In this document: piece after piece, positions 2,102 to 50,100 of the stretch
Position numbering within the stretch: position 1 is the stretch's first letter
Layout of the letters: every line of letters starts with the position of its first letter
NCBI GenBank assembly: GCA_907163375.1
Contig: CAJQUW010007119.1
Span: 124,001 to 188,000 of the forward strand
Direction: 5' to 3'
Source: Prostheceraeus crozeri
Lineage: Eukaryota; Platyhelminthes; Polycladida; Euryleptidae
Length of the DNA: 64,000 nt
Notes under the pieces: model-generated
What the model was told of the DNA's origin: nothing
Database searches by the model: none
Seen by the model: the letters and a program-made list of their open reading frames with translations, nothing else
Made by a program: the position numbers and the translations under genes

Positions 2102-2189
2102 CTTCTCGTACAAATTCGTTGTATGGCTTCTCTGGGATCGGTTTAACAATAGACATGTCGTCATTCGCCACCAAAATGAGATCCGCAGC
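2102..2189 (-). CDS. Module 5 exon A: diverged N-terminal half of CIDE-N (88 nt, phase 0-1)
   Basis: Encodes ADLILVANDDMSIVKPIPEK and PYNEFVREG; acceptor TTTCATTGTAG, donor GTAAGT. Length, phases and the KP-Y/F-x-x-FV-R-x-G ending are kept, but the RIS-x-EDGSR core has become VANDDMS. No matching exon B is visible in the remaining 2.1 kb, so the gene continues beyond the left edge. Confidence 0.65.
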
Positions 2190-5100
2190 CTACAATGAAA
2201 CATACATGTAGTTCCTTAACCAAAGAGTATTATTTTCAAGTTAGGCTTCAAACCCATTATCAAATATTTGCATTTAATCAACTTGTTAATTGAAATATGC
2301 GATTCATTCCTTGTCTTTACACAAGCTTCTATGCTAGAATAAATACACGGGCTTGAGTTTGCTGCTCGCACGTCTGAAGGAAAAAGTCGAAAAAGATGAA
2401 ACACTTTTTCATTTACACTTCTAAGCACCAATGTTGAAACTTCATTAGACATCCTGAAGATCCATTCGTCGAGGACTATTGACGCAATCATTTTCTGGAG
2501 ATGATTTATGATTTTAAGCGCCGTCGAATTACTGAATCTCAAATATCTTTTTGGTAAAAAAGCACCTTCAGGAGTAATTATGCTTATTGGCTTGTGGAGC
2601 TGCGTCGCCAGCGTCTTTCGAAGTGAACGTTTCTCCTGTTGCCGAGCAACTGGTAAATGCATGTCATTGGTTGCATACTCTTATGAAGCCCGATTTCTTT
2701 GCTGTACTACTTCAAGGCTAACCGTGATGCTCATGAAGTGGTCTTCATATAATGAAGTATCTGACATATTCGGAAGGGTCCTTCTGCTGTTGGCAGCAAA
2801 ACTAATTATTAGGATTTGCTCAAGCGCTTTCGAAGTTCGTAGGACATCATAATCATGCCCATGATGATTTCTTGCGAGATTCAGATGAAACAACAAGTGT
2901 TAATGAGATCTATGACGATCGTCTATTTGCAAAATGAGATGATGCCAATATGATGCTGATTACGGATAGCAGTAATATGTTTAAAAAGACAAAATTACTT
3001 CAAAGAAAAAATGCATGCGATAAAGGATTAAATGCTGCATCATAAAAAAATCCTTAGAACCTGACTCACGGACCGAACATGTCATACACCGTTAGTACCT
3101 CCAACTTTAATAAATCATCGGACTGGTTCTGCTGGACTATTTCAAATGAAGATTGAAATGAACATTCAAAGTTAAAGCGATGAACGGAGAAGTTTGTAGT
3201 AATAAAAGAATGTGAACTTAACTTTGAAAATTATGCATCAACTTTCGATCAATATTTTGAAAATGAGGAAAAATTTCATGAAATCAAGTACTCGGCATGT
3301 TCTAAAATTGTTGTTGTCTTGTACCTTTCTACATTTCGACAAACTCTTGGGCTTCTGTAAGAGTGGGTTTAAAATTGGAAAGTTTGGATGATTTGATTTT
3401 TGCTCATACGGCTTATAACCTACATGCATTATTGCATCTTCGAATTTCTAGGAAGATCAGATGAAACATCATAAAAAACGAATGACAAACATGACGCTAG
3501 CAACATTTCTCAAAAATGATTTCACTTACCGAATCATCCCAAATTGCTGGATCTTCATGTGTGTCATCAGCTAAAGGTCTAAAAATACAAACATGAAGAT
3601 TATTGACAGCATTTTCTACAGTTATAAATAAGTAAGTAAATGTAAGTAAATGTTTATTTCTGAAAACATTAAAAATCACGACAATCAGTATGGACTCACA
3701 GCAATGATAAATACAGACAGAAAGAATTAATTCAAAGGTTGTGTTGATTCTTTAGAAATGTACAATATACGTAACGGTAAAGATAACGAGGCAAAAGTCA
3801 AATTATACAGGTACCATTTGCCAGAGCTGTTGTCAAAGGGAAAAAGGAGTTTCGTCTTCGGGTTGTCACAGATTGAGGCTGTATAAACTTCTTGGAACGC
3901 AAAGATTTCTTGGGACAAAGCTCATGTAAAGGATGTGAAGGAAAGTTGCATATTTTCAAAAGCAATTTAATGGATGCTGTCTTGCGTCGGTCTTCTAAAT
4001 TTGGAAAAGAAATGCACTGACAACAACGTGATTCACCACAGATTATGACGTGAGCTCTTCGTTGGATTTTCTCAAGTATTGAGGCGCTCTGAGCTGACAT
4101 GCCAACAAAGATAGGGGAACAGTATTCAATAATTGACAAAATTGATCCCTTATAAACGTGCACCAAGGTTTGGTGGTCCAGTAAAGGTTTCAGTATGCGG
4201 AGGGCATAAAGTCGTCGAGAGGCGACAGTGTTGACGAACTCGAAGTGTCTATTCCATTTGAGATCGGAGGTAAAATGCACTCCAAGAATCTTAAGCTCGG
4301 TAACCAATGGAATTGGGGGAAATACTGGGAGCGTACAATCTTTTCTTCTTGGAATCCACATAAGCTTACATTTAGCGTCATTCAAAGATAAACTGTTCAT
4401 CGCTGACCAATGAAGCATATTGTCGTGTTCTTGCAGGATCTTAGTGTCACAAGGATTGGAAATCGGAATTACAAATGTGTAGTCGTCAATATACTTAATA
4501 ATGGTTGTGCTCTGGTACATGGGACGCAATGAACCGACGACTAAATTAAACAAATACGGACCGATTAATGATCCCTGTGGAATTCCAGAAATAACAGGTA
4601 GGTGACTGCTACAGGAATTGGACAGTTTCACAGACTCAGTCCTACCATACAAGTATTCCTTGACCCAGTAGATAAATCCTGTGGGAAGCTTGTTGATCAC
4701 GAGATGGTTCAACATAACATCGTGACCTAACTCGTCAAAAGCTTTACTGTAGTCATAGGCCAAAACAGCCACTCCAAAGGTGTTGCTATCCTCCATAGCT
4801 ACTGTGATGTTTTCGTGCAGGCAGATCAAGGCAGCTGTGGTAGACGACAGCGGTAGATTCCCAAATTGACCTTGTCCAAAAGTTTGGCGCAGCTTGTCTG
4901 AAATGCCGGAGTTAAGCACAGCTTTTTCGCATATTTTGGATAGAGCTGATAATAAAGATATCGGTCTGAGCTCACTGATTGATATTGGAAGAAAATATTA
5001 TAAGAACGCATAGATCCTCTCTTTTGCCTACGGTTAAGCAAGAATGGGAAAGCGGTAAAAGAACTTCAATACGCTGAGGCACACTGATGTGCATTCATTC

Positions 5101-8100
5101 ATAACATTCTAAATACAAAGGACAGGGAGACAGAATTGAAGAATGAACTGAATAAAAGGAATTTGAAAAGACTAAAGTTCCATTTCGCTTCATTGATTCT
5201 TTTTCAGACAGAATCCATCACAAGAAATATCATGATTTATCGTAAGTTCATAAGAATGGGACCGTTTCGTATCTTGATCAGTAGCGGAAAACATGAACAA
5301 CATTAGAATCTCGACAATTGTCAATGACTACTTCATCTAATGAATGTAATCATTTCGATGCCTAATCTTGGCTCAGTAAACTGACTATCAGAACGTCAAG
5401 AGTTCAAATCCAACTAAAAACGAATGAATCATTGGGAAGGAGTGACCGGGAGCTCCAACACAACATCCTGCTCTTTATGTTGACACCAGCGGAAGTCGAA
5501 TGGAAGCATGCGACAAGCTTTTTAATCATTTTACAGACCAGTTACGGTACGCACTAGAGTTTCACAAGGGAAATTTTCTGTGAATTTGTAAATATACGAA
5601 TATAATGCAAGTACTGAATAAAAAATCTCTGAATTGTGAAATCAAAATTATCGGCAAATAATTCATCATTTAAAAAACACTTACAAAGAAAGACTGTGAT
5701 TCGTAGTGTTATTCCGGCGTGCGCCGAACTTATTCGTTGGACGTTTTCGGCGTAATGGATCAACGGCGACTTTTCGATTACCCTCAATTTTCTGTTTGAA
5801 TTTCCGTTTCAGTGTATTCTGAAAGCAATACATATATGGTTTATAAATTCATATTCATGAATCTTTAGGATGTGTTGCTTAAATATTCAGGTCACATGAC
5901 GAAAAAATCAATTAATACGGGAGCGGTGTAGTTCAAGGTGACTATTGATGCCACCAATAATCCGGAGCATCGGTGTTAGTACTCACAGAAGGCTTTATTA
6001 CAAAATAAGTTCAGGCGAATTTATACATATCAGACTTGTGCTGTAATTGTAATTGTGATTACAATAACTTTATTTAGTAACTGTAATCAATTCACGGATG
6101 TGATGAGTAATTTTTAATTGCAATCAATTACATTCCTAGCCATGTGATTGAGATGTAATTTCAATTACATACTTTGCGGTCAGCTCTGTTCATTAGTGCG
6201 CAGTTCAAATCACCTTGCTCTCCTCGTCGATAATGCGCTAAAATACTTAGATTTGCACCGGGTGTACAACTAACACAATGTACTTTCAAAGAAATTTAAT
6301 GCGAAACTTATTGTCAAAATCTATCTTAAGTGCGGTGTTATTATGTTCTTTACCCCTCTAATTGCTGATCGGAGAATGCAAATCGGAAAACGTTTATTAA
6401 TTTCCCCTCAGAATGTAATTGTAGTCAATTACATTTCATGAGTAATTGACACAAGTCTGATACATACAATATCTAACAGACACTGACTTTTTAAGAAATG
6501 AGGACTCATTCTTGCATAGAAATCTGATCTACCTGTATTCCTCATGAAAGGGAAAGTCAGTTGCCAAATGTCACTACATGATGGACACTCAACAACACAG
6601 TGAAAGAGATCTTCTATCTACAGTTGGTCACAATAAATACACAGACATTCCTGACTTAGTTTCCTGTTTCTATATCGACCAGTTTCAACTGCCAATTCGT
6701 AATTGCCAGTTCGAATTCCTATTATGTACTGAGTTCTTGTTTAGTCATAGGCAAGTGACTAAATTCAAGTGGCTCCGGCGAATACCGAGTTCGAGTCCGG
6801 TTTCGGAGCCCAGAAATAAAGTAGTGCAGTCAGCTACTCACCCATGTACCGTCAGCATCAACCAGCATAGGATAGGAGCTGCAAATAGCTTTTCCTATAT
6901 CTTTCAGCATTTTTTCAGATATGTACCTAAAAATACAAATGTACAAAGTAAAATCAAAAATAGCTGAAATTAAATAGCAATGTATTTGACAGACAGCGCA
7001 TGCTGAAGCGCTTGTAGTCGACTGACTAGAATTCGTTATCTGAAGCCATGAACGAGATATTATTTACATCAACACACAAAACATTGAGCAACAACTCCAG
7101 CACACATGGGAGTAAGGAATCGCAAAAGTCTATAGCATTGATTAAATCAGGATATTTTTGGTGAGTAGGACATACCGCTAGATTCATCGCTGATTCTACA
7201 ACAATAATTTATGAGTTTGTACTGACTTTGTATATAAAGAGAAATTTGCCAGTCGTGTCCTGAACATAAAACATTTTGTTCTCAAATGGCAATGTCGTTG
7301 TATCAATTTTCTCCATCCGTCGATCTTCTACTAGAAATTGGTATTCAAGACCTAACTAAGTATGTGGTCTAGAAGTATCGACCTTAATTAAAAGAAAAAT
7401 GCGACTTCACGTTCGCTATGATAAATATTACTAAGAGTATCAATTCTATGTGTGCTATAAATCTTAATAACTGAGCTTTAGATTTTACCGAGGCTGAAGC
7501 TAATAAGCGAAATTAAAGTTATGGCACAAATTGCATCCATCAATGACAATATCCCAATTATCATCATAGTTATCACGTGAGAGAGAGAGAGGAAAGATCA
7601 CAGCTAACATTTGTTGATGTGCAATAGATTTCCTCATTAAGAAAGTATTCATCGATTTCTTAATCATTAGCTTTGAAAACCAATTTTTGAAGAAATACAC
7701 ATGTACATATTTTTTAAAAAAACTGGAAAATCAAGAGAAAGGCTCCCCATTTTTTAGGTCGACAGTAGTAAGTCTACGTTAAAATATTAAAATTATAAAT
7801 GACTGGCCTTGGACTTCTAGCGTCTTCTCAAAGTCGCCTTCTCAAGACGCTGAACGCCGAAGGTCCGTTATTTATGCGATTATCTTATTTTAACTCTAGC
7901 TTAGTGGTGACTAAACTTTGGCCAGCTTCTTCTTGCTTTTCCGGGACTGTTTTAAGAATGACCTTCCGACGACTAATTAATTACAATATATCTACTCGCA
8001 TGTTTGTCATAACCTCACTTTCCTTCATCCACACTATGTATTTTACAAGAAATTAAAATTTGCAGTAATGGTTCACCAAGGAATCAAGGAATGGAAGCTA

Positions 8101-14100: not shown

Positions 14101-17100
14101 AGAATCCGGTTGGTTGAACGAGCGTATCGGGTTGAATGAACGCAGGTTTTTCGTATCTCCGCAATGCATTTCTGTTCAACGAGGTCGTTGGAAAGTCGAT
14201 TAAACGTGTCAGGTTTCAAAGTCTCGGTTCGGTTGAAATCAGTTGAGGAAATGACAGCCGTTTCTCTTGCTGGAGCCGGTGTAATCCAATCCTCGAGAAC
14301 TGGATCGGCGCCATATGAACGCACTGAAGCTCAAAGTGAATCGGAACATGATAACAAGCGAACTTTCCGCATGTTACGAAATGAATTGGAACAGTTAGGA
14401 AATGAATTTCATGGCGAAAGAATTGTGGGCCATCGTGGTTGTCATCTGGCAACAAGTCAGAGGATGGTTAACAATTTTGTGAAGTTTCTGTCTGTAGGTG
14501 GATACATTCGTCAATTGGGGCGATCAGCTGGAATTGCGACATCAACTGCCCATTTACATACTCATTGGGTATCCGAGTGGATGGCATCAATCGCACAAAG
14601 ATTTGTTTCTTTACCTAATTCTGATCAATTATCGAATTTGCAAACTGGAAGGTTTGGCACGTGGTGGGTTTGTTAGATGGATTCATCCTTCATATCCAGC
14701 GACCAGCTCATGCTAGAGACGCTTACTATTGTGGCTAATGATAGGTCGTGGTTAATCAGAATGTGGTTGATTGAAACAACCCTACTCTGGTTAGCAGGCA
14801 CTCTGTCGTTAATCACACTGTGGTTCGGCTGACCGAAGCTAAATCGTAGTGTGATTAAACGGAACTTTGAAACCGCCGATTTTGTTGTGCTGAAGGTAAA
14901 TTTCCGACGATTGCAGACCTCTACAGTGCGCATATTATTTTCAAATAGACAACAAAATGAGTTTCGAACTTACATAATTTACTATGAACATATTTGGAAA
15001 TTCGAAATATGTATATTTTCCTTACTTGCTCTCATCCAGACGCACGATGACATCATTGAAAAGCACTTGAATAAACGGATTATAAAATGAGGGTTTAGTC
15101 TTCAATTGAGCAGCATCTCCAGCGCATCGAATGCTTGCAATTTGCTGTTTCACATACTCAGGCATTTTTGGTAACCGATACTCATCGGGCCATTTACCAC
15201 CACTTTTATCTTCCATTTTAATTTTGTATGAAGGCGAAAAAGTGATGACCAAATTCTCCATCGAGCAACGTTTCAGCCCTTCATCATCTTTAATAACGTC
15301 CCCTCTGTCGGATTTGAGCATAAGTGGGAAGTTTGAAGGAAGTCCCAAGGCATAAAGCCCTGCAAAATAAATGCGATATTGTCGGATCATTGGCATTCGT
15401 TATTATTAGGGCAATTTTTTATGACATGTCACATTTTGTCATATTTTTAGGGCAAGGTAATATTGTCACATTTTCTGAGTCTCATCATATTCAGTCATTT
15501 TGGTCATTTTCTTGTAGTTTTAGACTTTTAGAGTAGCCGGGAAGTAGATATAGAAATGACCGATGCTTGCAGAATGACGCAATATTGGTCTTCTCAACAG
15601 CGCGATGCAGTCGGAGGACAGTTCCAATACATGCATTGCCTACAGGTGTGAATGTTACCGATGGCGCCAGGATTGGCTCGTCTGTCGTCTGCCTTTCCTT
15701 GCCAGCCAACCGCTGCTTCGGTAGAGCGCTCTTCTCCATGTTGATGAAGATGCTATGCAAAAACAGACTTTTTTGACATCAAATGAAGTAAATTACATTA
15801 CTGGTTTGTACAAAAAGCCGTAAATGGGCATACACTGGTAAAAGTTAGAAATAAATCGTTTTATTTGTCTTAAATTGAACTTTTGAACTTTTTGCCTGAA
15901 AATGAAAGCATAATTTTTGCTATATTTTAAGATTTTATATCTTGCCAAATTAGAATTTTCGATTCTTATGTCATATTTTGATCACATTGAGAGTTTTGCA
16001 GGTCCTATTTGGTTATATTCAACGCTTTTTTAAGGTCATATTTTTTCGATTTTTAAGACATTACTAAAATTGCCCTAGTTATTACTAATATCGCTCGCTT
16101 CCTCGAAAAGAAAAAGAAAGGGCGAAAGAGTGATTATGAGGTGCCATGCGATGAGAATTTCGATACGTAAAAGCTTATGTAAAATCTGCCACAAATAATG
16201 CACAATGCGCATTTGAAACCTGCGAGAATGCAACAACTTAAGAAACAAACTCAATGTAGTGGAAGCACGGAAGTGGATGGCATTTAGCCTTTCACCACTC
16301 CTCAGTAATGACATGATATATTGGGGATCGAAACCCACGTGTTCTTGTCCTGTGGTTTCTATGTCATTCTTCTGTATTCCTATAAGAGACATCGTCGAGA
16401 CTTCCAAATAATTGAGTGTATTCTACAATATATTTCTAGAAGAATTTGAACAAGTTAGTGAGTTAGAAGATTCTTTGATATGCCATGATTTCATTTTCAA
16501 TGACTATTGCATGAAGATTATAATCATAAAATTCCACATAATTCACTGTGCGAGTCATCAGTTTTGACAGAACTTTATGAGGTTGATAGACAAGTTCGAC
16601 GCTATTGGTCATCGTCTAGAAAATGTGAAACATTAGAAATTTTGAAATCAGGCTATTTGCTCGCAGCTAAAATTATGCTGTAAAAATGGTACAAATGTGA
16701 AGCAGAAAATGGGTTGAATTATTAAGAACATTGATTTATGTTTAAGATATTGAGTCATTGCCTTGTTGAATTGAGATTTTGTCATCAATTATACTAACAT
16801 ACCTGACGAATTATATTCTCTGTTTCATTTAAGGCGTGAGCTGCCAGAACTTGACTCTTAGATCAAATTTACGCATGATTTTATCTTAGTTAGGTACATA
16901 GGGATTACATAGTCCGTGCTCGCTTAGTTACTATTACAACTCACCAGTTCGCACGAATTCTTTGAAAGGTTTCAAGATGTTGAGTTTTGTACAGCTTCCA
17001 TCTTCATTTGATATTCGAATTAGAAGTAAATCCTGAAAATGAGAGGAAATAATCATGGAAATGCAAGATGGTAAAAATTCTCAAACGGCTATTGGTCGCA

Positions 17101-32100: not shown

Positions 32101-35100
32101 TACCGGACATGGTTCTCTTTGAAGGACAGTCGAAAAAGGAAAGGCAGGATCGAAATTCGACGAGCTTTTAGTCGTCGTAAGCCAGAAACGTTTTGATGAT
32201 CATCTCTCTTTCTATTGCGAGTTGACCAACATATTACGTCCGTAGAATACGCAGTGATGATTACGGTATGTCGTAGTAGGTTTACACATTATTCCTATTT
32301 GTTAGTGTTATGTCAGGAAGGCATTTTCTGGAATAAGAAGGAAAATATTCAATTCTATTACTGTCATCAATCTGATACATAGTCGTAGACACATCTAACA
32401 GTTCCCAGTGATATATTATAGTCAAATATTTTTTGGGGAGCGAAAATATATGGGACAATATTGGGGCGCGAAAATATTTTCGGAATTTTCGCGCCCGCCT
32501 TCATTTTTCGCACATTCGCGCCCGTTTTTACGGAATTCGCGCCCCAGTACGAACACTGTATTCATCGATTTTTTTATGATCTAATTTTGGCTAGCAATTT
32601 TCTAAAGCACGAGTTCTTCAATAGAAAAAAATCAAAATTCAAATGCAATTTTCAATTTCTAAACAAAACACATTCACAGACAGTAACGCGGAAACTTCCA
32701 ACAATAATGCGGAAATTTCTATACATGCGCATCAGTGATAACATTTCAGATAAATGAAAAAGAGAAACACTTTGTATTGTTCATTAACATTTGCATGTGG
32801 TTTCTAATCTGGGCTCGGATTTTTACTTTTTCACATAATTTGACATTTTCCGGAATTTTACATTTCCCCCCTACCCCTATATTTCTTCATTCCATATTTG
32901 CACGAAATACGAGAATGACCATTTCCATCACCAAATCCGCGGAACCGTTTTACTCCCTGATACTATGAATACAAGGATAGCATGGCTATCAAAAAATGTG
33001 TCAATAAATTCAGATGCATGCACATGAACCGCAGGATGCAGTTATCTTCAAGAATTTATGCATTGAAAAGTGTTGAATGAAGCCTATAAATGCTTTCAAT
33101 TTCAACAGACTGAAGGCTCCAGTTGAAATGCATTGGGTTGATGGATAAAGTTCGGCTTAGGTTTAGTTTGCTTGGTTCAAATTTCCTCGTTTTTCGACGT
33201 CTCTGCTTCCACTTTAGTCGAGAGCAATGTCTTCTGAAAAACTAAGTATCACAAGACTTTCTTAAATTGATGCGTGCCATAACGTCCTAGTGGTCGGTCA
33301 CCATTAAATGGCGCATTTCACCGGTGTTGTTATCTATAGCTCTTTTCACAGGCTAAAGTTCGGATCAGTCTTAGTGATGCTTCCATCAATTTTGAATTTG
33401 AATTGCGTCATAAAATTTTGCGAATGCACTGTCTATATTACGATGATGAAAACGTTAACTGGATCTGCTAAAGACGTTTCATCAATTTTAGACTTACCGA
33501 TATATTTTTCCTCTTTGCTCTGTTTCCCTGGACGCTGGATACTCGACCATGCTCCACCGTTCTTTGGATCCGTTCTTCTTGATTCTCTGGATCTACTTCC
33601 ACGCTTGCTGTCACATCTTGGTCCTCGTCAATGTCGCAAGTCGGTGCAACTCTGAAAAGTTGAATTCATTGATCCGATAGGAATCAAAATCTAATTGATT
33701 TCAAATGTGTTGTTATAGTTACATTTAATAAGGTATTTTTTAGGAGCAAATCCTATCAACTTTATAAAAATAGATGGATAGAAATAGATTGGCGCTCCTC
33801 AGAATTTCAAACAGCACCATCGACTGAAACGAAATATCGAAGAATTAAGACTGTTATAACTTACACAGATGGATTTCTCATTGCATGGAAGCCACTTTTC
33901 TTCTTATGAAGACCATAAATTCTCCGCATTTCTTCCTTCTTTTCACTCGTTAAATTTCTTCTGTTGTATTCCATTTTTCTGACAAATTTACACCTCAATG
34001 TAGTCTGAAAATTAAAGTAAAATGAGAAGCATAACTTTTCTGATACATGCTTTATAAATTTTTGACATTTGAACTTGACATGCTAGAGATCAATAAAACT
34101 TCTTTTTACTGTCTTCCATTTTGCACTTGGTTATTACTACTTAAATTGTTTCAGCAACATATTTGATCACTCCGCGGTATCTTAAACTCATCAGTAAAAC
34201 AACCAGATGCTAGATATAAAAATCAAATATTTCTTTACGAAAATATTCATCCTTGTAATCGAATACGCAACATGAGTTTGCATACTGGGACTATTAATGA
34301 TACATTCGTAAAAATGATTAGGAAATTTATACAACAATTAAGATAAAAAAATGAAATTTGTATTTCAGAAAACATTAAATGATTTTGAAAACCTGCATCG
34401 ATTGCCAGAATTGTTAAATCGGTTGATTCTTGTCAGTTCGACAACGGCACCACATGGGCGACAATAATAAAAGTTCAGCAACGAAATTTCATCATAAAAG
34501 GCATTTTAACTTCAATTGTACTATCTTTAACTGAATTATATTTATTTCAAATACATATTGAATATAATTATGTTATTTTTCGACTTCATAATTATTTTTG
34601 ACGTACAAAGAATCGACTCAAATAATCAGAGGAGCTCGAGAGGCTTTGCCAAATAACCGATATCAGAGAACATAAAAATTTACCATGCTCCTCCACTTTT
34701 AATGCTTGACGCTGATTTCTAGATTTCTCTTAAGTTAAAACTTTAGGGAAACCGAGCCTATTCCTCAGCAGAGGATAAATGTAAAAAGCAAAAGAGCTTA
34801 GTTATATGAGGTTTATAAAGTAGAATAGTGAAGTTATCAAAAACACAGAATAATACATGATATTTGAATTTCAGCTTGTTAATGATGTTAAACATCATGG
34901 ACCAAACTAATGAAAGCTATAATCAGAAATAATGCGAGAATTACAGCGATGCACAAAAGTTGAGAAATAGATATGCGAGTATAAGGTGATACTAAAATAA
35001 CTAAGTAATCACACAACTGCATGTTTTGTGAATATTACTAAAGCCGTTATTGTTCTGGCAACTTATTCTGATGAGCTTGCTTCTATTACTCCGTGTTCTC

Positions 35101-38100
35101 GTTCTTTCACCAGATGCGCAAGAAGAGTTGACTTATACGCATTTCAATAGATCCTTCTTCCATAAAATAACACGATTAATGAAAAAGCTTCCTGGAGGTA
35201 TTCACAACGTCTGTTAGTGTTGAAGCATTCAGAGGGCCGTCAAAAAGATTCGACTGAGCTTCATGGAGAGTTGACAATTAGAGGAATATTATAATGTAGG
35301 CCGATTTCTATTATGTTATCTTGGCTGAAGAGACAGATAGGGGGATATAAATTCACAATGACTTATTTATTATACATCTTTAATCCCCGTATCCGTCTGT
35401 TCACTTTCCCATTTCTTTACATGCTATCTTTTTCCGTATTTCTGTTATTGGCTTACTTAGTTGTACAGTAACGACTTATGCACCTTTTTCTGTACTGTTA
35501 ATTACTTTGTTGAAATTCCTTTATCATCCCCTTTTTTTCTTTCTTTGCATTTGATCATCTGCTATATAGGCCCTGTTGCATAGGCGAGTCCTCCCAAGCT
35601 TTGAATAAATAATACGTTGCTGATGGTCGATGACACCTATAAATATCGCACAAAATTGCATGTTTAGTTAATAATCAATGAAAGATAGGCGGCATCTAAT
35701 AAAACTCTCGGTGCTCGATTACAGATTGCAAGGCCAAGGACTTGACACTATGCCACGAAGACTGAAGTCTTCTCCGGCATTTGGGGTAAGATTAGCTGGT
35801 TGACGTCATTGGCCACTGAATAATGGACATACCAAAAACTAACCAAAGAAAAGACCATGCCATGCTTTGCATTAAATAAAATGAATTGAATGAGATGGAT
35901 GTCTGTCTATGTTCATCACGCAACAATCATGTTCATAACCATTGTCAAAGACATTGATGTACATGTGCATATGTAAGTAGTACATGACTAACTCGCGCGA
36001 CCTGGCCTAAGTTGATAAATCATATAGTGACAGTTTCACTAGGAAAGTATATGTATATACCACACAATGAGTGGTGAAACCCTAAAAGGACAGATATTCA
36101 ATGATACTTTTGCAATCACTTCGTAAAATGATTAACTCACCCACGTTCCATCTCGATCCATCAACATTGGATACGCCCTCCGAATAGCCTCTCCAATAGC
36201 AGAAAGCTGCTTTCTGGACAGATAACTGAAAATGAGGGGTAACACGTTTAATGATCGGACTCATTCTGCAAAGATGTCTGACTATAATTGCTTCGGTGGA
36301 GAAAGCGATCTTATTACTCAGTGGAGCAACTGGTCCACATAACCAAGGCGCTCATGCATTAAATAATGTGATACAGCAAATGCTGCACCCAAAAGGACCT
36401 CAGTCATCAGTTGAGCGCCATCTCTCACGCAGATTTCGACCCACTAAGCTCATTATCTCTCAGTAAGCTCAGTATTAGGATGATGGGTCCGCAACAGCTA
36501 TTGCGCCTAATTCCTTAACACCAGGGTCATCACTTCACCGATCACAAATTTATAGGAGGCCCATACGTTACATTTTCTGGGGCCCATTTCAGTTTTGATA
36601 CGATTTTGAGCAATCCAAGAGTCAATTTCAAGTAGTTACGAATCTTTATGTGCCGACACGCTCTAGGCCCTATGATGAGAATAAAAATACATTGATTATT
36701 AATGCACTAAGGACACAGATCACAATTAATTAGATCTGAAATATGTTGAGTCAAAGTACCTACCGCAGACAAAAAACCTCCAGCCTTTTGGGAGTATAAC
36801 TAGTATAACTTTTATGTTTTTAAAGCGCCGCAGACAAAGCCACCCTTTTGGGAGTATAACTAGTTGAACTTTTATGTCTATGAAGCGCCGCAGGTGAAAC
36901 CTCCAGCCATTTGGGAACATAACTAGTAGAATTTTGATGCTCTTAAATCGCTGAAGACAAGACCACCTTTTTCGGGAGTATAACTAGTTGAACTTTTATG
37001 TCTATGAAGCGCCGCAGGCGAAACTTCCAGGGGTGACCGCAGAGAAACAGTGTTAGATAGTGAGGGTGAATCTTGCTGTTTGAGATTTGTCAGCCTAACA
37101 GTATTTCTTTGGGGTCGCCCCAGGCTTTTGGGAGTGCAACTAGTAGAATTTTTGCTTTTAAAGCTCCTTCTCTACGACTTTCTATCTGAAAGGCCCGTTC
37201 TCATCCTCCTTCCATCTGAAGGGATCCCCGTTCTCATCCACCTTCCATCTGAAGGGGTCCCGTTCTCATCCTCCTTCCATCTGAAGGGGTCCCGTTCTCA
37301 TCCTCTTTCCATCTTCATAAGGATAAAGCCAAAACCTCTGCAGATAATATGATCCACGGCTGAGTTAATATAGTTCATAATGAGTTCCAATCTCGACCAT
37401 GCGCACCTGATGTGTGAAGGCTTGCCGTCTAAACAAGAGATTATCAGTCATTGTCAATACGGACATCTTGCGAAAGTAATTTTGTGAACTGCTTCACATC
37501 AGTCAAAAGCAGTTCACAAAATTACCTTTGCAATTAAAAGAAAGTGCCAAAGAGACTTAAAGTTACCAAAAGACTCAGGAAAACCTCTACTATCATCTTT
37601 GTAATACAGATAAATATACGAATTCCTTCTTATCATCCAGTTTGTCAAATTTTCTATAGAGCTCTGTTTTGTGTCTTAATGAATTTTCTAAACTCATCTC
37701 TGTTTTACAGTCAGCTGTGGCTGCTTTGCCAAATAAATGCAAAATAATATCATTATTATCTTATCAGAATGCCCTTGCTAATGTTAAGTTCACTTTCCTT
37801 CCGTCCAGAAACAAAGTAGGTACCTTAACTTTCGACTTAATGCTGAACGTTAGTCTAGACATCCAATATACCGCTTTTTCTCAACGCCGCGGCGTTAATT
37901 TACCATCGCCTACTTTTAAGTGCAGCGTTCATTGAATTGTACGATTTTTCACTTATTAGATTTTTCCAATTGAATAACAAAATTATTGGGGTCTATGAGC
38001 TTTACGGAAAAGCATCAATAACAGCTGAAAATTAATCTAGTATTCATCCTGCTTCATTTATTCATTGACTACTAGACGTGATGTTTTCGACGTCGAATGA

Positions 38101-41100
38101 AAGCAGCGTGGAACTAATGTCTTGGAATTTGCGGTGCAACAGTTGTATGTCAACATTGAACTTGAATCATAAACTGGCTCAGTCCTCGATGGTGCAGGAA
38201 GCTCTATAAGTTACCGAATCTTTTTCTAATTCAGATTCTGGTGCTGATGACATAAAATTAGATGCATTGATTGGAGTGTAGGTTAAGTGTCACGATTTTA
38301 TCACTTGTGTTAGACTTCTTTTGTCACAATATAGACTACAAACAGCGCAATGTTATTGAGCATTCCAGCAACGGTTGATAACTATGAGTATACCCTTGTT
38401 TTTTAGCTCTGTGGACGATAGTGCATTGCAATTGGTCTTTCCTCTCTAATTTTCGTGCCATTGGAAATGCGGCGTTTATTTAAGTGTTGATGACCTCTCA
38501 GCTGGTGCGCTCATCAGAGATGCGGCGTTAATTAAAATGTTGATCTCTCAGCTGGTGCGCTTATTAGAGGGCGGCGTTTATTGAAGTGTTGATGACCTCT
38601 CAGCTGGGGCGTTTATTAAAGTATTGATGACCTCTCAGCTGGTGTGCTGATTTGAGGGTGGCGTTTATTAAAAATGTTGATCTCTCAGCTGGTGCGCTTA
38701 TTAGAGGGCGGCGTTTATTGAAGTGTTGGATGACCTCTCAGCTGGGGCGTTTATTAAAGTATTGATGACCTCTCAGCTGGTGTGCTGATTTGAGGGTGGC
38801 GTTTATTAAAATGTTGACCTCCCAGCTAATGCGCTTATCAGAGATGCGCCGTTTATTAAAAATATTGACCTCTCAGCTGGTGTGCTTATAAGAGGGCGTT
38901 GTTTATTAGAGCAAATAAGGTAATAGGTGAGAAGATTCAGGACAACCAAATACAAAGAAATCTATTTTTTTTGAAGTTCGGATTTTTTAATGCACTCTCA
39001 GTGGAGTAAAGACTAAACAATGCAATAATCAGGACTAAAACACATTCAAAACAAAAAGTAGCGAAGCTTTCACCCCACACTGACGACGCTCTTACCCGCT
39101 TTCCTCATATTTAGACACATGATCCACAAGTGGACGAAGGAAATTAATGCAGAATGTGAAGTTCTTCTTCAGTTTATCAGCATCGTCAGGTGTTCGTATT
39201 GCAGAAATCTGAGATTTGACATAGGGATCTAGGTCTGGCAACCGAAAGTTAGCTGGCCATCTACAATTTGCAAGAGCAGTAAAGTCCGCAAAAGTGATGT
39301 GCAACCTCTCTTTCTGACAATATCGCAATCCATCGTCATCTTCGATCACAACATCACCATCAGTTTTGAGAATCAGTGGAAAATCAGGAGGAAGTCCCAG
39401 CATTCTGAGTCCTGAAAAATAAAAATTAAGGATCAAAACTGTCTATATTAAAATTGCTGTTATCATCGGAAAATTTCGGCTTTTCGGAAAGACGCTGATC
39501 AATTTTGACCGAAAGATTAGCCGACAGTTAACTATCGGGAAATTCTATGCTTATTGAATCAGACAGAATCTTCCAATGCATTCGTTTTTGTTTCGAAGTA
39601 TTCTATTCTATTCAAATTCTATGGACTCAGGCATCTACGTACTTTCATCGATATAGTAGTGACTATACCAGTGTGTGGTGATTTATCTGACAACTGCACA
39701 TCGTCATCAAACCACAATGCAGCAGACACTGATAAAGCGAAGAAAAATACCCTTTGAATGCAAAAACGCAAATGAAATCCATCACCACGTACAGTTGTTG
39801 TTTTACTTGGATCGCAGTCATCAAGCAAAAAAAACTATTTCAGATCCACTTTTCATACGGTAATTTCCTAATTATTATTTTCTCCACACATTTCAAACTT
39901 GCTTGTTAAATAACATATCGAATAAATCTGTCAAGAAAAATGTCAATGTCTGAAATAAAACAGGCGCCGCGTGCATCTTATGCCGAGAAGCGTATCATGT
40001 GATCATATTAACAAACCCTACGTGTGTATCTTGAGAGATTTTGTCACATTGATTACATCAGTCTTCCTGATAGTGAGCCTGTGGGTTGCTCGTTGCTTTG
40101 CCGAAGTTTAAGCATTGACCAAACGATAATGGATCATCTATACTTGTTTCTAAGTATCCAACTTTTCTCTGCAGATGATACAACAGCATTCTTGTTGGCC
40201 ATGATAAGACCTCTACCAGTCTACGTTGTGCGGCGGTGAACTGTTGCATTCAGAAGTGTCGGGATTGTCAATTAAACGAGGAAAAGTAATAATTCGGAGG
40301 ATTTGAAATCTACACTTTATCGTTTTTCAAGCAGCGAGCATCTTTGAAGAGCCTGGCAGAAGGCAACACTTCGTGAAAATTCTAAAATCACTGATAATAA
40401 ATCGATGTGCTCTCAACATATTATAGCGTGAGTTTTGCAACGCACTGTTTTCATTTGTGAAAACGTTACATTCAAATAAAGTAAAATTTCAAAGTAAATA
40501 TCAAACACTCATCTGGAAATTCCTTTGATAAAATGAAAGACATTTCCATTACATGCCTTGTGCAATTCTTCAAATATCTTCAGAAAAATATAAAAAACTA
40601 ACATAATATGCAATAACAATAGTTAGAGATGCCATCAAGTGACAATTTGATAGTGTAATCTTCAGGTCTACCCGTGAATATTTCGTCCGATACTACAAAA
40701 GTCAACACGACAGTCATAGAGATTCAAAGCATGGAAAATAATCCTATTGAAGCAAATGAAATTAAATGAAAATCTCCTCAGCCTAAAGGACTTTCGGAGA
40801 GAAAATCCAGTGAATTTGAGGGAAATGCTGGGTGCTAATTTCTCGTCAAAAGAACGCTGTAAATATGGTAAAAGGCATGGACATTGTCACATGTACGTGA
40901 ACTCCAATCAATCAGAGAGGACATTATCATGCCACAATTACGTGACATGCACAAGAAACTGAGAAAATAATCGGAAATTTGTTCCAACTTAGAACGAAAC
41001 ATCTCTTAGCAAAACAAAAACATATTGATTTTTTCGAGCTGTTACTGCTGCCACCTCTAATAAGTAATCTATCATGGCTTCATTAGTTGGTTAAGAAAAA

Positions 41101-44100
41101 GAAAAAATCCATTTATCCCACGAACATTTTTTTAATAGAAGCACAGAGTTTAGGTAATAGTTATTAACAACATTATTCGATAGAAATCATAAACTAAGAT
41201 TGCATCTCAATATTGACTTTAGGGTCTATACTACTCGTACATCTGCATTTAGGGAGTCATCTTCCTTCCCCACAGAATTAGATTGTTTAATCGTGTCACT
41301 TTGCTAGAAGTGCGAACTGATTCAAACAGATGGCACATGCAGGAACTTAATAAGTGGGCAAAAAGAAATTTTTAATACCTTGCAGAGATAGGAAAAATAG
41401 TCGTGCGTCGCTTGCAGATTGCTCTGAATTCCTTTAAAATGCTCCGATCGCCGACTCCTTCAGATTCGAAGAATTCAGATCATTGCGCAAAAGTTTTCTC
41501 GATAATGTTGGGCCCTCCGATCATTTTAAAAAAAGTTAGCAGGCTCATGAAAAAACGTTCACAAACTTCTCTGTAGAACTTGACATCGTCTGTGTCTCTT
41601 TGCTGTGTGATTCGGTTGATAGCAGTCACTGAAACTTTGCACAATTTGGCGTGTTTAATGTTGAACTGGCTGCTTATTGTTCGATTGCTATGACACTTAG
41701 TCAGCATATTGTGCCATTTCAATAGCGTTACATGTTCCAATGCTTCCCTTCTAGTCAAACAGAACAAGAGACGAGCTGTCTAATTCTGTGGCCTTCCCCT
41801 TGCAAATGTATTTCATCATAACTGTTCGGAAGTAATTTAAGCAACTCTCATTTTGATCATGTACTAGAGTAGTAGAGTCTCATGTAGTAGAGTGTCATCG
41901 TAGTTCTATTGTTTACCTCCATTATCCATTTTCCATTTGTCCTCTATTACCATTATCCACTGTGTGTAGTCTCAGATATAATGTAGCATTAGTGCACTTG
42001 CAATCGGTGTAGTAGCATCATTGTATTCCATGTTTTACCTCCACTTTTCCAATTTTTATTCATCGGTCTCCTGTTGTTTTATAATATCCATTTTTAATTT
42101 CCTTAATCTATGGTGACCATTGTCCTATTCTATGTATTTCCACTACCAGCATCTATAGTCGGTAAGGTATATTAGACGTCTGTTTTGAACGTGTATGCGG
42201 CAGTGCTTGGAATCTATAGTATTAGTATATTAACAGCAAGAATGAGCAGTGTTACAAGTCTAAAGATTTCCATTTTTACCAGACATTGGGCCAAAGCTGA
42301 TCAATTTTAATTCGTTGCCACGAGAAAGCTCCATTGAGTTCTTTTAAGAATTGATTAATCCAATGGTTACAGTAGCATTGCATTTGTACACTTGCGGATT
42401 GGAGAACGCCATCATTCCTCATTAGGACTACTTCAATTAATAATTTAAATTAGTAAGCATTGTATTCTATTATAAATGGCTGCTGGGATGATTTTCATCA
42501 TCGCATGAGAATTTTTACAATCAGGTAGGAATCTAAACATTTTCGAATGTTAATAAATGCCATGTTTATCACAAAACATCGAAAATTATACGTATAACCT
42601 ATTTTTGATATCATTATTTGAATTTTATATGAAAACTTGATCATTCCTGGCGAACCTTATTTTTTCGACTAACAGTATATTCAGCTTACCAACTTTAACG
42701 AACTGCTCAAACGGCTTTATCAGAAGATCCCTGACACGACTTCCATCTTCAGTTGATACTCGAAGCACATTATGTCTCTGAAATAATGGCGTAAGCATAT
42801 GACTATGAGTCTCAATGTCACCATCTTCTTCGACTCACCGATATCTCTTGATGCTCTTCGTCACTTTCATAAACTGACACAGTCCTGAAAATGTACGCAC
42901 ATAGCATTCAAGGGTCACCGCTTTTTGAATTCAATAATGATTATAAACAGCATGCTACTTAGCAGCAAGATTATGACAGTATGATTAATGAGTTATGTAT
43001 TTTGGCTATTCAAAATCAGTTTAGGTTGATATTGATAACAGAGGGATACACAAGATCTCTGATGTGAGCACGTATAGGACAACTGACTCCCGAGGAAGAA
43101 TGCTGGGGCTAGATAAGACGAATTATGAGAAAAATGTATGAATTTCATATGACGAAATAGTGAATCCAATACCTGAATGAAAATCAACAAGCCATTAACA
43201 ATTTTCGATTACAAGTTTTAAATCATGGCTCACGCGCTTTTTTCAAAAAGGTCATTCCACGAAATCTCATGACATTCTTGATGATATTCCATAACCTAAA
43301 AATTGCTAGAAATTACAACATAGTTCTAAGAGGCAAATGTCTGATTAACTGCAATATGATTACTTCATATACCGCAGAAATGGATTAGTTTTCAGAGCAC
43401 TTCGGCCTATGCCACGGTTAGAGACCAACATCTATGCAGTTCCTCCCGGTGCGCAACGAAACGTCATTGGTGAAATTATACATGTAATTATACAGTAGGA
43501 GATGAAAGCTTATTCACCGCTTGAAGCTGTTTATCCTAAGGCTCTTTCCTCTTAATCATGAACACTAACTGAAACTCAGGAAACTAACTGTTTCACGCGG
43601 CGATAGCGTAAGGTAGAACGACGCGTCTCCGTTCACAATCCTACTCAAATGCGGCTTCTTGTAGAAAATGATCAATAATAAGAAATGATGAGTCAACACT
43701 ATTTCATGCAAATATATGTTCCTCTTTCATCGGTAGACCATGAATGTAGGTGCAATAAGAAAACGGCACATGTACACGGTGCAGCACATGTATCCTCCGA
43801 ATATTCAAATGATTCATCGTGCATGCCAGTTCTCATAGAAAATGCGCTCATCATTACGGATTCCAAGATGAATTGCATGATGGAAGTCTAAAGAGCTATA
43901 GAAATTTGTGAATTATTTGTTTTCAATTCAATATCTGACTTTTACTTTGTAGCGCTTCGTGTTCAATGCTTGATTTCCATTCTTTTGAAATATACAACTA
44001 TTATTATTATTTATGATACAAAGTTCAAATAATGTGTAACTAATTTCAAAATTTCTTGTCTTAATTCATCAACTTACTTGCAAAATTGAAAGATTTCATA

Positions 44101-47100
44101 TTGATGTGCTGTTCTGCGATATTCTGTGCAATGATTCTATTCAGTTTCGACAATTAACTTCTGGCAATTAAATAAACTATTGACATTGACATCACGTTGA
44201 AACTAGAGGAGATATGCCGGCGTCAATCGTTCATCGATGCCGTTTTCTAGCTATTTCAACAATACTCAGCGAATTTCAAAAACTAAGTTTGCAGAATTTC
44301 AACCATCCAAGTTCAATTGTCGCACCTTGTGCATAAAAATGTAAGCCTTATTGGATTATCTTCTGCGCATCTAGCTTAACTTATATTTAGATATAAGACA
44401 GTGTATGTGGATTTTGATAAACATGTTTAAATAGAACACTATGTATGAATTCATCTAGCAATTTCACACTGATGCATTGATATCAGCCGATGATTAATTC
44501 CTTACATTAACAGTGATCCATTATATTGGTTTATCTTTTTCAGTTCAATATCATTTATTCATTATGCGAGTATATGGAGGAACCAATGCCGTATAAATTG
44601 TATACAGGAAATTAATGGTGAGCGTGACAGAACAAAAGAAACATTCGATTAGCTCCTACAGAGATCCGAAATCCAAATGGCAAAAACGACGGAAACCGCT
44701 GATATAATTTCAAAGCTCCACGTGGATATGCATTTATGCAGAAATACATGCGACGTATTATTCCTCTGACTGGTCAAATTGTTATGGTGATAATAAAAAT
44801 TGACTAGAAATTCGAATCAAGTAGTCGCCCATTCATCGCCGATTTTGCGATTGGCATACTTGTTTGTCAAACAGCATTGTTTGAACATGGCAGGATTAAC
44901 AACATCATTGATTAATAGAATTCCGCATTTTTATTGCGAGCCCAGAATCAAAAGCGACTGTGCTATGATATTGCAGTATGCTGCGATGCGTCAAGAAGTA
45001 AACAGGCCTTGACTTGACACCTTTGTTCACCCGGCGCTGTGGTCTTGTGGAAGAGTGCACGCTTTGCGTCCAGAGTTTTAAAATTGATACACTCTGCATT
45101 CTTGCTTAACACTCAGCACAATAAGTATGACACGCCTTGAACGTTTAATGTCTGCCGGTGGGAACGCACCACCTGTCCTCTTAAGGACAAACCTAAAAGT
45201 CTTATTAACTATAAGTTTATTAAAATTATGAAACATTTAGACGTCGTTATGGGAATGTCCCAGCTTCAATATGAGAGTAGGATAAATAACAACTCGGCCA
45301 CATGGAAGAAAGACTCCGTACCTAATGTGCTCCGAGTATAGGTTCATTTATATATTTATGCTTTGCGTCCTATTCTTGTGGTATCTATTTCGCTGATGCT
45401 TCAAACATAGACGAAGTAAAGAATACGACAACAACACTTACATAGATGAATTTTCTTCTTGAGAAAGGTCAGTTCGACTCTGATTCGATTTCCTTTTTTT
45501 CATCGGTGGAGAGCCACCTTCTCCATTTCTCGAACGTTTGTATAGCATCTGCATTTCCGTTCTCTTATCACTGGTTACAAATCTTCTTTTATATTCAAGT
45601 TTTTTGATGAATTTTTTCTTCAATGTATTCTGGAAGCAAAATCAAGTTAGACACGATCACCAATAATTATCAAATTCTTCGCCAGAGCAGGTAACTGTCA
45701 CAATAGCTGTTATAATCTCGATAGTCCTGTCAGTCATGCCCAAGTGGTTCAAATCAGCCAAATCACAAAAATTTTCTGTCAATTTAGTTAAAACAAAACC
45801 ATTCTCTGCTTAATGATGTATACAATACATCTAAAATTCTGCTCTGTCACTTTGAGATAATTGTATTCAATTATCTTATTTAGTATAAAAGACAGGCTTC
45901 TATAACCGTAAGATTACGTACGAACTGATTATACAGTACAAACAATAACGCAGTATAATTATGATAAAGAAACAAATGGATTGCAAGTAATTGTTCATGG
46001 AACTTCAAATTTTGTAAAGGATTGTTTCACCAAAGAATTATCATGTACAAAAACAAGCTTGCTTTAGCGGTTCGACCTGAGAGAACATCGCTTTATGTTG
46101 GCAGTTAGTCGTGCAATGTTCCATAATCTTTCAATGGGAACAGCAATAGCGGGAATCGAGAAGACAAATCGGGCGATGAAACTGAACTGCTCATTTGCTG
46201 TGTGTGAATTATGTTGATCTTCAAATCAAATGAAGTGGATTGATAAATTTCATCGAATTTGATTTCATTTGTTTCTGATTCTTCTGAAAATTCGCTTCTC
46301 TTGAAAATAGACGCCGACGGAAACTATTGGCGAGGCGTAGGATTCCGTTTCTTTAGTATGTTCTAGTTAGATGGGGCTCTTATATTGACTTACTTGACTT
46401 AATCGCTTAGGCTACAATCGCCCCTTGCTCCCACCAGTTTGCTCCAACGGCTCCAACTTCTACTCTGGGCTTGGCGTTCCAAGGTGTTAACTGGCTGGCC
46501 CGTGTCCGTTAGTATTTGGTCCCTTCATCTTTTCACTGGTCTTCCGCGCGGTCTTAGGTTGGAGAGGTCCTGCCTGAATGCCCTTGAGACATAGTGATCT
46601 CACGGTCTTCTCGCTACGTGGCCAAACCAGCTTAGCCTGATCTCTACGATGGTAGTGTTCATGTGGAGGTTCCGTCTGATGGCTTCGTTCGGAATACGGT
46701 CTCGGATGCTGGTTCCATAGATGGCACGCAGACACTTCATTTTGAAGATCTCCAGTTTTCTTTTCACTTTTCAGTGTCCATGTCTCGCATGCGAAGATGG
46801 CTATAGATATTATGAGGGCTATGTGCAGTCTTATCTACTGTATCTGTACAGTCCTCTTATATTAAGGATCGATATAAAGTAGCATTTAAACAATATCTAG
46901 TAGTATATTTCGATAATAGCTTCACTATCCAAGTTTATCTTATGTTGTTAACTGAGATTTCTAGAGGATGATGATTTCATTTAAATTATTGAATTATACT
47001 TTGAAGACGCAATGCCGATACCATAGTGAAAAGTACCTCATGCTTGGAAAAACTATTGCATTACTCAATAAAACGCAGACGTACTGCAGCTACATTTAAA

Positions 47101-50100
47101 AATGATTTTAAACGTGGGTATATAATCATGTTTTGTAAATTGCTTCAAATTCCTGTTTTCAAAGATGATTTTAAAAAATGATAACAAACACAAGCTTTTA
47201 TACCGTCTTGTAATTATAGACATGGTTGCAGAACCATATTTCGAAATAGAGTTTTCTAACCGTATTTTTGTACACGTTCATTTAAATCGTGTTGATGACC
47301 AGTTGTCACAACTTTACACGGGCGCGGGCCGCATTCGGCAAGGAAATAAGGCCGTCGACTGCAGTTTGCATTATTCAACTTTTTCACTATCTACGTCTAT
47401 TAGACGCACCGTAAAGCAAGTAATTGTTAAATTGCATTGATGTTCCTCATGAAAGCATTTGATGAAATTTTACAAATATTTGGGATAAGAATTTTCATGA
47501 ATTCATTCATTGAAGTATGTTTTATAAAAACGACGCAGGTTACTTGCAAGTTAATGCATTCAGTTACAATCATTTACTTATTAAGTTACGATCCTTTGGG
47601 ATCAGCTTCTTCGAGTCAACTGAGGGTAGGGCTAAACGAAGACAAACTCCAAGAAATGTCCGATTCAGAAGATTTCCAGCTCTGGATTTGATCGACTCTA
47701 CTGCGGAAAATGTTTGACTCACAAAGACAAGCACATACGTGCGCTTCCAAACATTGAGAGAAAGCGAAATCCAAAGTTGCGGTGCAAATTAGGGCACTGA
47801 TCTTCAGAGAGAATTAAATGTGTTGAAGCTTTTCGCAATCTGCTAGAAATTTTGGAATCGCTTGACCAAGTCTTACAATAGGGTATCAAGGGCCTCAACA
47901 ACTGCTTCTATCAATGCTATCGTCATAGAAAATGAAATCATCAATATGAAATCTAATTTGCAATTTAAGCGTGAAACATACAATTTAGAACAAAACAAAG
48001 TCAATTTTTAAACATAACTCTACAGATGTCAAAGATGAAGCGAATTTTGAAATTTTCAAGAGGATGACGTGGACCGCATTGGACAACTCTAACAGACTAT
48101 GCCTTGATGCCTTAATTTTATATTCACACCGAGAGCAGATCAAGACTAGTGAGCCAATAATCCTTCTGCCTTTTCAGGCCTTGTGAGGTTCAGAATACAT
48201 CCAAGAAAAATTATTGATATGGACGAATGTAAGAAGTAAGTGTATATGAAGTAATCACTAATAACTTTCGAATAGCATGTTATCGACATCACAGGTGCTC
48301 TAGTCTGCGAACCAAAGCGGCCTTTGAGGTTGCGGATTCATTCAATAGATTGTTAAATAGAAAATAAATGATCGTGGAGTAAAAAATTATCTTTTTAGCC
48401 ATAAAAGCATGATATCTTTTTAACCCTATATCCCTAAGTGCATGTGATATTCACTCGCAATCAAAGGAATTCAAAGAGCGGGATTTCTGCAATTGAAGTT
48501 TTATTGTAGGCACTCACCCACGAACCATCTCTATCCATCAACTTCGGGTAGGTCCTGCGAATAGTTTCTCCAATTTGAATAAGCTGGGTTTTGGACAAAT
48601 AACTAAAAAACAATTGCATGACCATTGGTTATCCAACTTTGTCAAGGTCAACAGGAAAATGCTGACGCTCTTACCCACTGTCCTGATATTTCGACACATG
48701 CTCTACAAGTGGTCGAAGGAAATTAGCACAGAACTGAAAGTTTTGCTTCAGTCTATCAGCATCGTCAGGAGATTGTATTTGAGCGATCGATCGTTTGAGC
48801 TGCGGATGTATATCTGGCAAGCGAAAGTTAGCTGGCCACTTACGCATCTCAGAAGCATTATAGTCGGCGAAAGTAATGTGCAAATTTTCTTGAAGGCAGT
48901 ATTGCAATCCTTCGTCATCTTCTATCACATCATTGCTGTCTGTCTTCAGGATCAGTGGAAAATCCTGACGAAGTGATAAAATCCTGAGTCCTGAAATGAA
49001 AGACAAGGTCAAGGCTGAAGACAAAAGACCTGACAGTCAATGTATTCTGATTATCACTTTTTCGTCACCCGGCCTTCTCGCACTTTCTGTGACCCTGGTC
49101 GTATGATCCGCCTGGTCCTGAACCAACGACACAACTATCGTAAAAATGGATCAAGCTTTTTGTTCAACACGTTCATTGGTTCGACAAGATATCTTTAAAA
49201 ACCGTTCATTTCATCGACAACTTCTACGCAGAATTCTATGTTCCATTTCGCTAATGCGTTCATTTGTTCGAAAAAATGATCATCAGATATCAATGTGTTA
49301 CTTTTCTATGACATAGATCATCATGATATAAATCCCAAACCTTGATCTCCAGCATGCTTTATCTGTATGCTCAAATCAAAATTTGAATGGGATGTTTTAG
49401 ATAACATAATTTGCGATATTCATTAGTTTGCTTCCATAATTTAATAAGATGGAGAGAGTTTCAGGAAAAACATCAAAAGATGAACCTCTGCTCGTTTCTA
49501 GTGAATATGCCTACATTACTGACAGAAAGAGGAACGATGAAACCCATAGGAAATGTACTGAAGCTAATTCAAAGAAATACAAAGCCTATAAGTACAACTA
49601 AATGTACGTCGAACAAAACGACCATCCCCGCAAAAATATGTCAAATATACCTTCGAAGATGTTCTATGGTAAATTGAACAAAACAAAGATGTTCATTTCA
49701 GGTTTTTACAATTGGAAAGTAATCTGATTCCATAGTGTAAGTTATTGAGTAGTTTATCAGTGATACAGAGAAGTATATCTTTTGTAAGGCTCCGGCTCCC
49801 CAATCGTCACTGTGCATAAAATACAGTTGTGGCAATGTTTCAAAGATAGCACAAATTTTGTAGCTTGGCTAGACCTAAAAATATCCTAAAAAGATACTAG
49901 CATTTTATAGATAAACCGAGTCAAAAGCGTTGTGGATCAAGCATCATTTGTCTTTGGGTACAGGAGATCAGTAGCTCATTTATGAACTTACCGGCGCGTA
50001 CAAACTGTCTGAATGGTTTTATCCGAACGTAACTCCTGCGGCTTCCGTCTTCATTCGATATTCGAAGCAGGTCATGACTCTGGAATGATATCAATAGACA

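Follow-up and report, generated by a model that had tools for sequence, protein, structure and literature searches.

A tandem array of CIDE-N-like modules, probably one gene, in the polyclad flatworm Prostheceraeus crozeri

CIDE-N is a domain of apoptosis and lipid-droplet proteins, and to our knowledge each known CIDE-N protein carries a single copy of it. A first-pass annotation of the DNA described here had set out from the same statement, which is consistent with PMC2426694. According to PMC8647176, oppositely charged faces let CIDE domains assemble head to tail into helical filaments, and the filament interface of DREP3 connects Lys122, 132, 145 and 149 of one molecule with Asp162, 165, 167, 168 and Glu170 of the adjacent one. 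Here we describe a locus of Prostheceraeus crozeri in which CIDE-N-like domains, each joined to a helical domain, recur along one strand of the DNA. The window, meaning the whole stretch of 64,000 nucleotides that was analysed, is part of contig C5922 (211,949 bp) in a genome of 2.05 Gb. Taken as a whole, the locus may be a single giant gene for a string of CIDE-N-like modules that would serve as a covalent multivalent scaffold, an explanation to which we assign a probability of roughly 0.48.

Within the window, the minus strand carries exons of four types, A, B, C and D, that recur in fixed order, module by module, each module being succeeded by an acidic linker exon, E. Four modules are complete in the window, which also includes the first exon of module 5. 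All 17 A–D exons are present between positions 50079 and 2102. Each is bordered by AG and GT, and the phases of each type are constant: A is 88 nt long (phase 0 to 1), B 316–340 nt (1 to 2), C 85 nt (2 to 0) and D 134–188 nt (0 to 2). The resulting phase series, 0-1-2-0-2-0, is identical across the window modules. When the 21 exons from A1 to A5 are joined, they give 2,983 nt free of stop codons. The four B exons match one another in tblastn searches at E-values from 4e-20 to 9e-49, which rules out chance repeats as the origin of the modules. In each module, exon A and half of B would encode a CIDE-N-like domain, the rest of B together with C and D a helical domain whose end is basic, and E an acidic linker.

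All of these exons lie on the minus strand, with the phases just given and the linkers running from phase 2 to 0. In module 1, exon A (49992..50079, 88 nt, bordered CAG..GT) holds the first half of the CIDE-N-like domain, exon B (48675..48990, 316 nt) its second half and the start of the helical domain, exon C (48518..48602, 85 nt) more of the helical domain and exon D (45442..45629, 188 nt) its basic end; the GTAAGT donor of D gives TAA on read-through. The acidic linker follows at 42839..42884 (score 18.8, ending TCG/GTGAGT, where the slash marks the exon border). Module 2 consists of A at 42690..42777 (88 nt), B at 39096..39411 (316 nt), C at 36141..36225 (85 nt), D at 33865..34004 (140 nt) and E at 33498..33651 (score 20.9, ending TCG/GTAAGT), and module 3 of A at 29735..29822 (88 nt), B at 27817..28156 (340 nt), C at 26961..27045 (85 nt), D at 25864..26000 (137 nt) and E at 23635..23683 (score 22.3, ending TCG/GTGAGT). 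Module 4 has A at 16945..17032 (88 nt), B at 15026..15359 (334 nt), C at 6842..6926 (85 nt), D at 5685..5818 (134 nt) and E at 3530..3578 (score 20.3, ending TCG/GTAAGT), the last with a longer open variant, 3530-3659, that scores 21.4. Exon A of module 5 lies at 2102..2189 (88 nt); this module runs beyond the window, with its exon B at contig positions 122899-122581.

The linkers were found with a splice model trained on the 17 A–D exons of the window, the E exons standing outside the training set. In each of the four D-to-A gaps of the window the model gave a single strong linker exon, in the last gap as two overlapping variants. Candidates scoring at least 18 occur as background 3 times per 212 kb on the plus strand and 4 times in reversed sequence, so that the chance of finding one in all four gaps is P ~3.5e-5. 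By net charge all four window E exons are acidic, and D1 to D4 are basic. The repeated exons of the first-pass annotation were confirmed in the window.

Its count of at least five modules also held, as an underestimate. Among the 50 matches listed for exon B of module 2 in the genome, 17 fall on the same contig, every one of them on its minus strand. Fifteen modules, numbered 0 to 14, follow one another there in one direction and order from position 204,730 down to 11,734 (193 kb). Profiles trained only on the window copies detect exon B in all 15 at E ≤2e-4 and exon C in all 15 at E ≤0.007. In total we mapped 62 exons (9,630 nt): A in 13 of the 15 modules, B and C in every one, D in 13, and six linkers. 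Exon C is 85 nt long throughout; exon A is 88 nt in 11 of the 13 found, and 91 and 94 nt in the other two.

Some features of the array beyond the window speak against this string of modules. For most exon borders there, the choice was made under the condition of the expected phase; when the phase was left free, the best acceptor was the chosen one in 37 of the 39 exons outside the splice training, and the best donor in 38 of 39. For modules 5 and 8, exon D comes solely from the splice scan; weak profile matches gave D of modules 6 and 13 and A of module 11. No D exon was found for modules 10 and 11. No exon A was found for modules 8 (88058-79727) and 10 (61902-61516, both in contig coordinates), in which B is reduced to its second half (190 nt, with the usual phases); they keep the helical domain and lack the CIDE-N-like half.

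We placed the DREP3 face residues on the 13 CIDE-N-like domains ourselves, so the assignments are approximate, and the limits used (net charge ≥+3 and ≤-3) were set after the table had been seen. By these limits, and to the detriment of a continuous stack, only four of the 13 domains, those of modules 1, 2, 3 and 13, clearly keep both faces. Module 0 has a basic face only; modules 5, 6 and 14 have mainly the acidic face; modules 4 and 12 lack a net acidic face, and in modules 7, 9 and 11 the faces are weak. Because the charges are so uneven across the modules, a uniform internal filament is unlikely, and a multivalent scaffold or a capped string fits the predicted faces better. The first-pass annotation had put forward a filament nucleus, ruler or cap, which we regard as a hypothesis. 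The two-faced modules might stack head-to-tail with each other or with the products of dispersed paralogues, the one-faced modules would end or redirect such a stack, and the gene would thereby set the size of the assembly. We regard this scaffold mechanism as tentative and somewhat less probable than its negation.

The same unevenness is what would be expected of a rather different protein, encoded by one gene, whose modules are independent adaptors, each binding a different CIDE-N partner, with no stacking within the chain. Modules are 14–61% identical, the residues at the DREP3 face positions vary from one module to the next, in several cases leaving a single face as just described, and dispersed paralogues exist as possible partners. 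Modules 1, 2, 3 and 13, however, keep both faces, as head-to-tail stacking needs. We consider the adaptor explanation unlikely, if with some substance, and retain the scaffold as the preferred one.

Both of these explanations assume one multi-module gene, which the exon structure makes probable. Its alternative is a tandem cluster of separately transcribed one-module genes. Exon A of module 0 contains an ATG, and the 7 kb upstream of this module yielded no other module, so the gene may start there; this start is probable but not certain, because the acceptor of the same exon is strong (13.8) and its donor weak (2.1), which tells against it. In all 12 of the A exons found after module 0, by contrast with what separate genes would require, there is a splice acceptor and no methionine before the conserved motif. 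A further acidic exon, of phase 0 to 0 (51196..51306, minus strand; acceptor 10.0, donor 9.4 bits), lies between modules 0 and 1 and was absent from the first-pass list; since this probable linker exon stands upstream of module 1, A1 is probably not the first exon of the gene. In a whole-genome search it matched only itself and a copy at 55492-55623.

The linkers point the same way. In-frame linkers were accepted in six of the 14 gaps (0-1, 1-2, 2-3, 3-4, 4-5 and 6-7). All six start in phase 2 and end in a phase-0 donor, TCG/GTRAGT, through which read-through gives no stop; five have no in-frame ATG, the linker of gap 6-7 being the one that does. Starting and ending in this way, and mostly without an ATG, the linkers need coding sequence on both sides, which a cluster of separate genes would not supply. 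The splice model did not demand the common TCG/GTRAGT end, which we take as a sign of the linkers' shared descent.

Other observations favour separate genes. Long gaps, of up to 21 kb, separate the modules, and eight of the 14 gave no accepted linker: four had no candidate at all and four had non-acidic candidates scoring 15.3–20.9. In 12 of the 13 array D exons the phase-2 donor GTAAG doubles as an in-frame TAA, so that D exons do not discriminate one gene from many. Three dispersed paralogues, C12776, C1322 and C13307, have B, C and D exons of the same kind as the array and yet show one module in the 9–10 kb looked at, and the A-like part of C12776 contains an ATG, unlike the later A exons of the array. 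Their D exons also have donor-like ends (3.7, 8.3 and 4.1 bits, respectively), and a donor after D is for that reason no proof of a next module. A contrast in which the D exon of C12776 stops and the array D exons do not was rejected, its end being a phase-2 GTAAGA of 3.7 bits and likewise donor-like.

On the other hand, 12 of the 13 D ends preserve GTAAG in full, beyond what a stop codon needs, and this favours a donor over a stop. A retrocopy search with joined exons D3, E3 and A4 returned only the three separate exons on the contig and no processed copy in the genome. Weighing these observations, we find a cluster of separate genes improbable. One gene is well supported for modules 0–5, by the in-frame linkers and by later A exons that lack a start; across all 15 modules of the contig it is likely, and the continuity of modules 5–6 and 7–14 is left at that grade because those gaps gave no accepted linker. 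The single open frame of repeated modules proposed by the first-pass annotation is accordingly supported for modules 0–5. The gene would thus lie on the minus strand with at least six modules linked in frame, and probably with all 15.

The identity of the A+B domain was approached through its relatives elsewhere in the genome. Six matches exceed the curated cut-off of the Pfam CIDE-N family (PF02017, 23.5 bits); five are of one near-identical type, represented by the domain on contig C3472 (40.7 bits, E 2.5e-10), and one of these five has an internal stop. The helical half of exon B lies downstream on the same strand in three of the six loci (at two of them with E 1e-6, at the third with E 0.024), a relation of proximity only. 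On other contigs B-type matches are single, except for the two on C9816, which lie ~57 kb from each other, and for a few contigs where one match is split into pieces; these counts are lower bounds, taken among the 50 and 58 candidates listed. Module 6 has a partial copy on the small contig C13545.

Compared in hhalign with the Pfam-positive C3472 domain, a profile of only the 13 array domains aligns over 58 columns (probability 86.8, E 4.2e-6, from a single comparison). The corresponding probabilities for the controls, one ubiquitin and one p62 PB1 region, are 0.9% and 0.3%. A PDB search with just the C3472 domain gives 13 matches, 11 of them CIDE proteins (best E 0.0063), and when its sequence is added to the 13-domain profile the six best of eight matches are all CIDE proteins (E 0.0012–0.29). 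Most of the A+B sequence can be aligned with the CIDE-N pattern, and several modules show basic residues in strands 1–2 and helix 1 and an acidic stretch before helix 2.

Direct searches with the modules tell the other side. Spliced modules 1–4 matched no Pfam family over its cut-off, CIDE-N included, so the claim of family is carried by the paralogues and the profile comparison. None of the 13 A+B domains exceeds the PF02017 cut-off: module 13 comes closest (21.2 bits, E 3.1e-4), followed by module 5 (E 0.049), and for the other 11 no CIDE-N match is listed even at E 10. The PDB result of E 0.0012 holds only with the Pfam-positive paralogue included; the 13-domain profile by itself has CIDE-A as its sole match, at E 0.67. 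With the alpha/beta-roll fold of CIDE-N in view, exon B alone was modelled; the model shows strand-helix-strand in its first half at a poor pLDDT of 68, and a fold search with that model gave no PDB match at E 0.001.

The Pfam results would be explained if A+B were another ubiquitin-like fold, for instance a PB1-like one, whose resemblance to CIDE-N is convergent. That the profile matches a Pfam-positive CIDE-N paralogue and neither ubiquitin nor PB1, that no other ubiquitin-like Pfam family appeared among the matches of the modules and that the second domain lies near Pfam-positive CIDE-N exons in half of the loci make such a convergence a poor prospect. We think it probable that A+B descends from CIDE-N, as seen through the intermediate paralogue, and class it as CIDE-N-like, not as a Pfam member. 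The CIDE-N identity first assigned to the modules is in this way kept as homology and given up as Pfam membership.

Regarding the remaining parts, six sequences of the helical domain, four of them array copies and two paralogue copies, were scanned, and no Pfam family exceeded its cut-off. The DFF40 nuclease domain (PF09230) has no match in spliced modules 1–4 and none in the genome, in a search that gave none in control genomes either. As a separate observation on the assembly, COX1 (C6227:15936-17282) is open only when TGA is read as Trp (codes 4 and 5), code 5 appearing right by eye and pointing to a protostome.

A stricter form of the scaffold is quite improbable: that a single protein of at least 15 modules forms a pre-set head-to-tail stack, a molecular ruler that nucleates or limits the assemblies of paralogues. 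The ends of such a ruler would be caps, module 0 with its basic face only and module 14 with its mainly acidic one.

The modules themselves record how the array may have grown. The unit from A to E is phase-symmetric (0-0) and can therefore duplicate without breaking the frame. Identity is 61% between modules 1 and 2, 57% between 7 and 9 and 51% between 8 and 10, and modules 8 and 10 are each other's closest relatives; the pairing of 7 with 9 and 8 with 10 suggests duplication of a two-module block. We propose that the array grew by in-frame duplication of single phase-symmetric modules and probably once of such a block. In all 105 module pairs pN is lower than pS, although saturation affects many of them; between modules 1 and 2, dS is 0.90 and dN 0.26. 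By this measure the modules are under purifying selection. That the array is a decaying set of non-functional duplicates, as the missing CIDE-N halves of modules 8 and 10 and the lack of any splice site above 6 bits in the upstream-linker copy at 55492-55623 might suggest, is very improbable given the excess of pS over pN in every pair and the absence of a stop from any mapped exon (the exons having been picked as open). A transposon origin of the modules was likewise rejected, as the three exons tested by DNA search are single-copy in the genome and the modules are under purifying selection.

The introns of the window carry other sequences. Reverse transcriptase fragments (RVT_1) lie at 3801-4997 and 20795-21379 (minus strand; E 5e-21 and 7e-24), and a hAT transposase dimerisation region at 31303-32199 (minus strand, E 2e-14) occupies the intron between modules 2 and 3. 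An open frame of 426 amino acids with a cysteine-rich end (9899-11176, minus strand) has no Pfam match at E 0.01 and resembles a mobile-element protein, by eye only. Minisatellite-like tandem repeats lie at 36774-37030, 37180-37314, 38469-38908 and 55749-56221, the last consisting of two copies of a 235-bp unit at 94%.

How does the array compare with known systems? The CIDE/CAD-domain proteins (DFF40/CAD, DFF45/ICAD, CIDE-A/B/C and Drosophila DREP1-4) share with the A+B domains of the array the CIDE-N pattern and its charged stretches. What sets the array apart from them is that a single apparent frame takes in up to 13 CIDE-N-like domains, every one joined to a helical domain, and we found no description of tandem CIDE-N proteins in the open-licence literature. 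If our explanation is right, it would add to invertebrate genomes a large family that combines a CIDE-N-like domain with a helical domain that has no Pfam entry. A partial parallel is SARM1, which has two copies of SAM, a domain unrelated to CIDE-N. The tandem SAM domains of SARM1 are likewise a covalent repeat of a self-associating domain. SARM1 is reported to be a homo-octamer (PMC7688312). CIDE domains are known to assemble from separate molecules into open-ended filaments, and an in-frame fusion of many of them would be an unusual scaffold, one that would make this gene a natural test of how CIDE assemblies are counted, nucleated or stopped.

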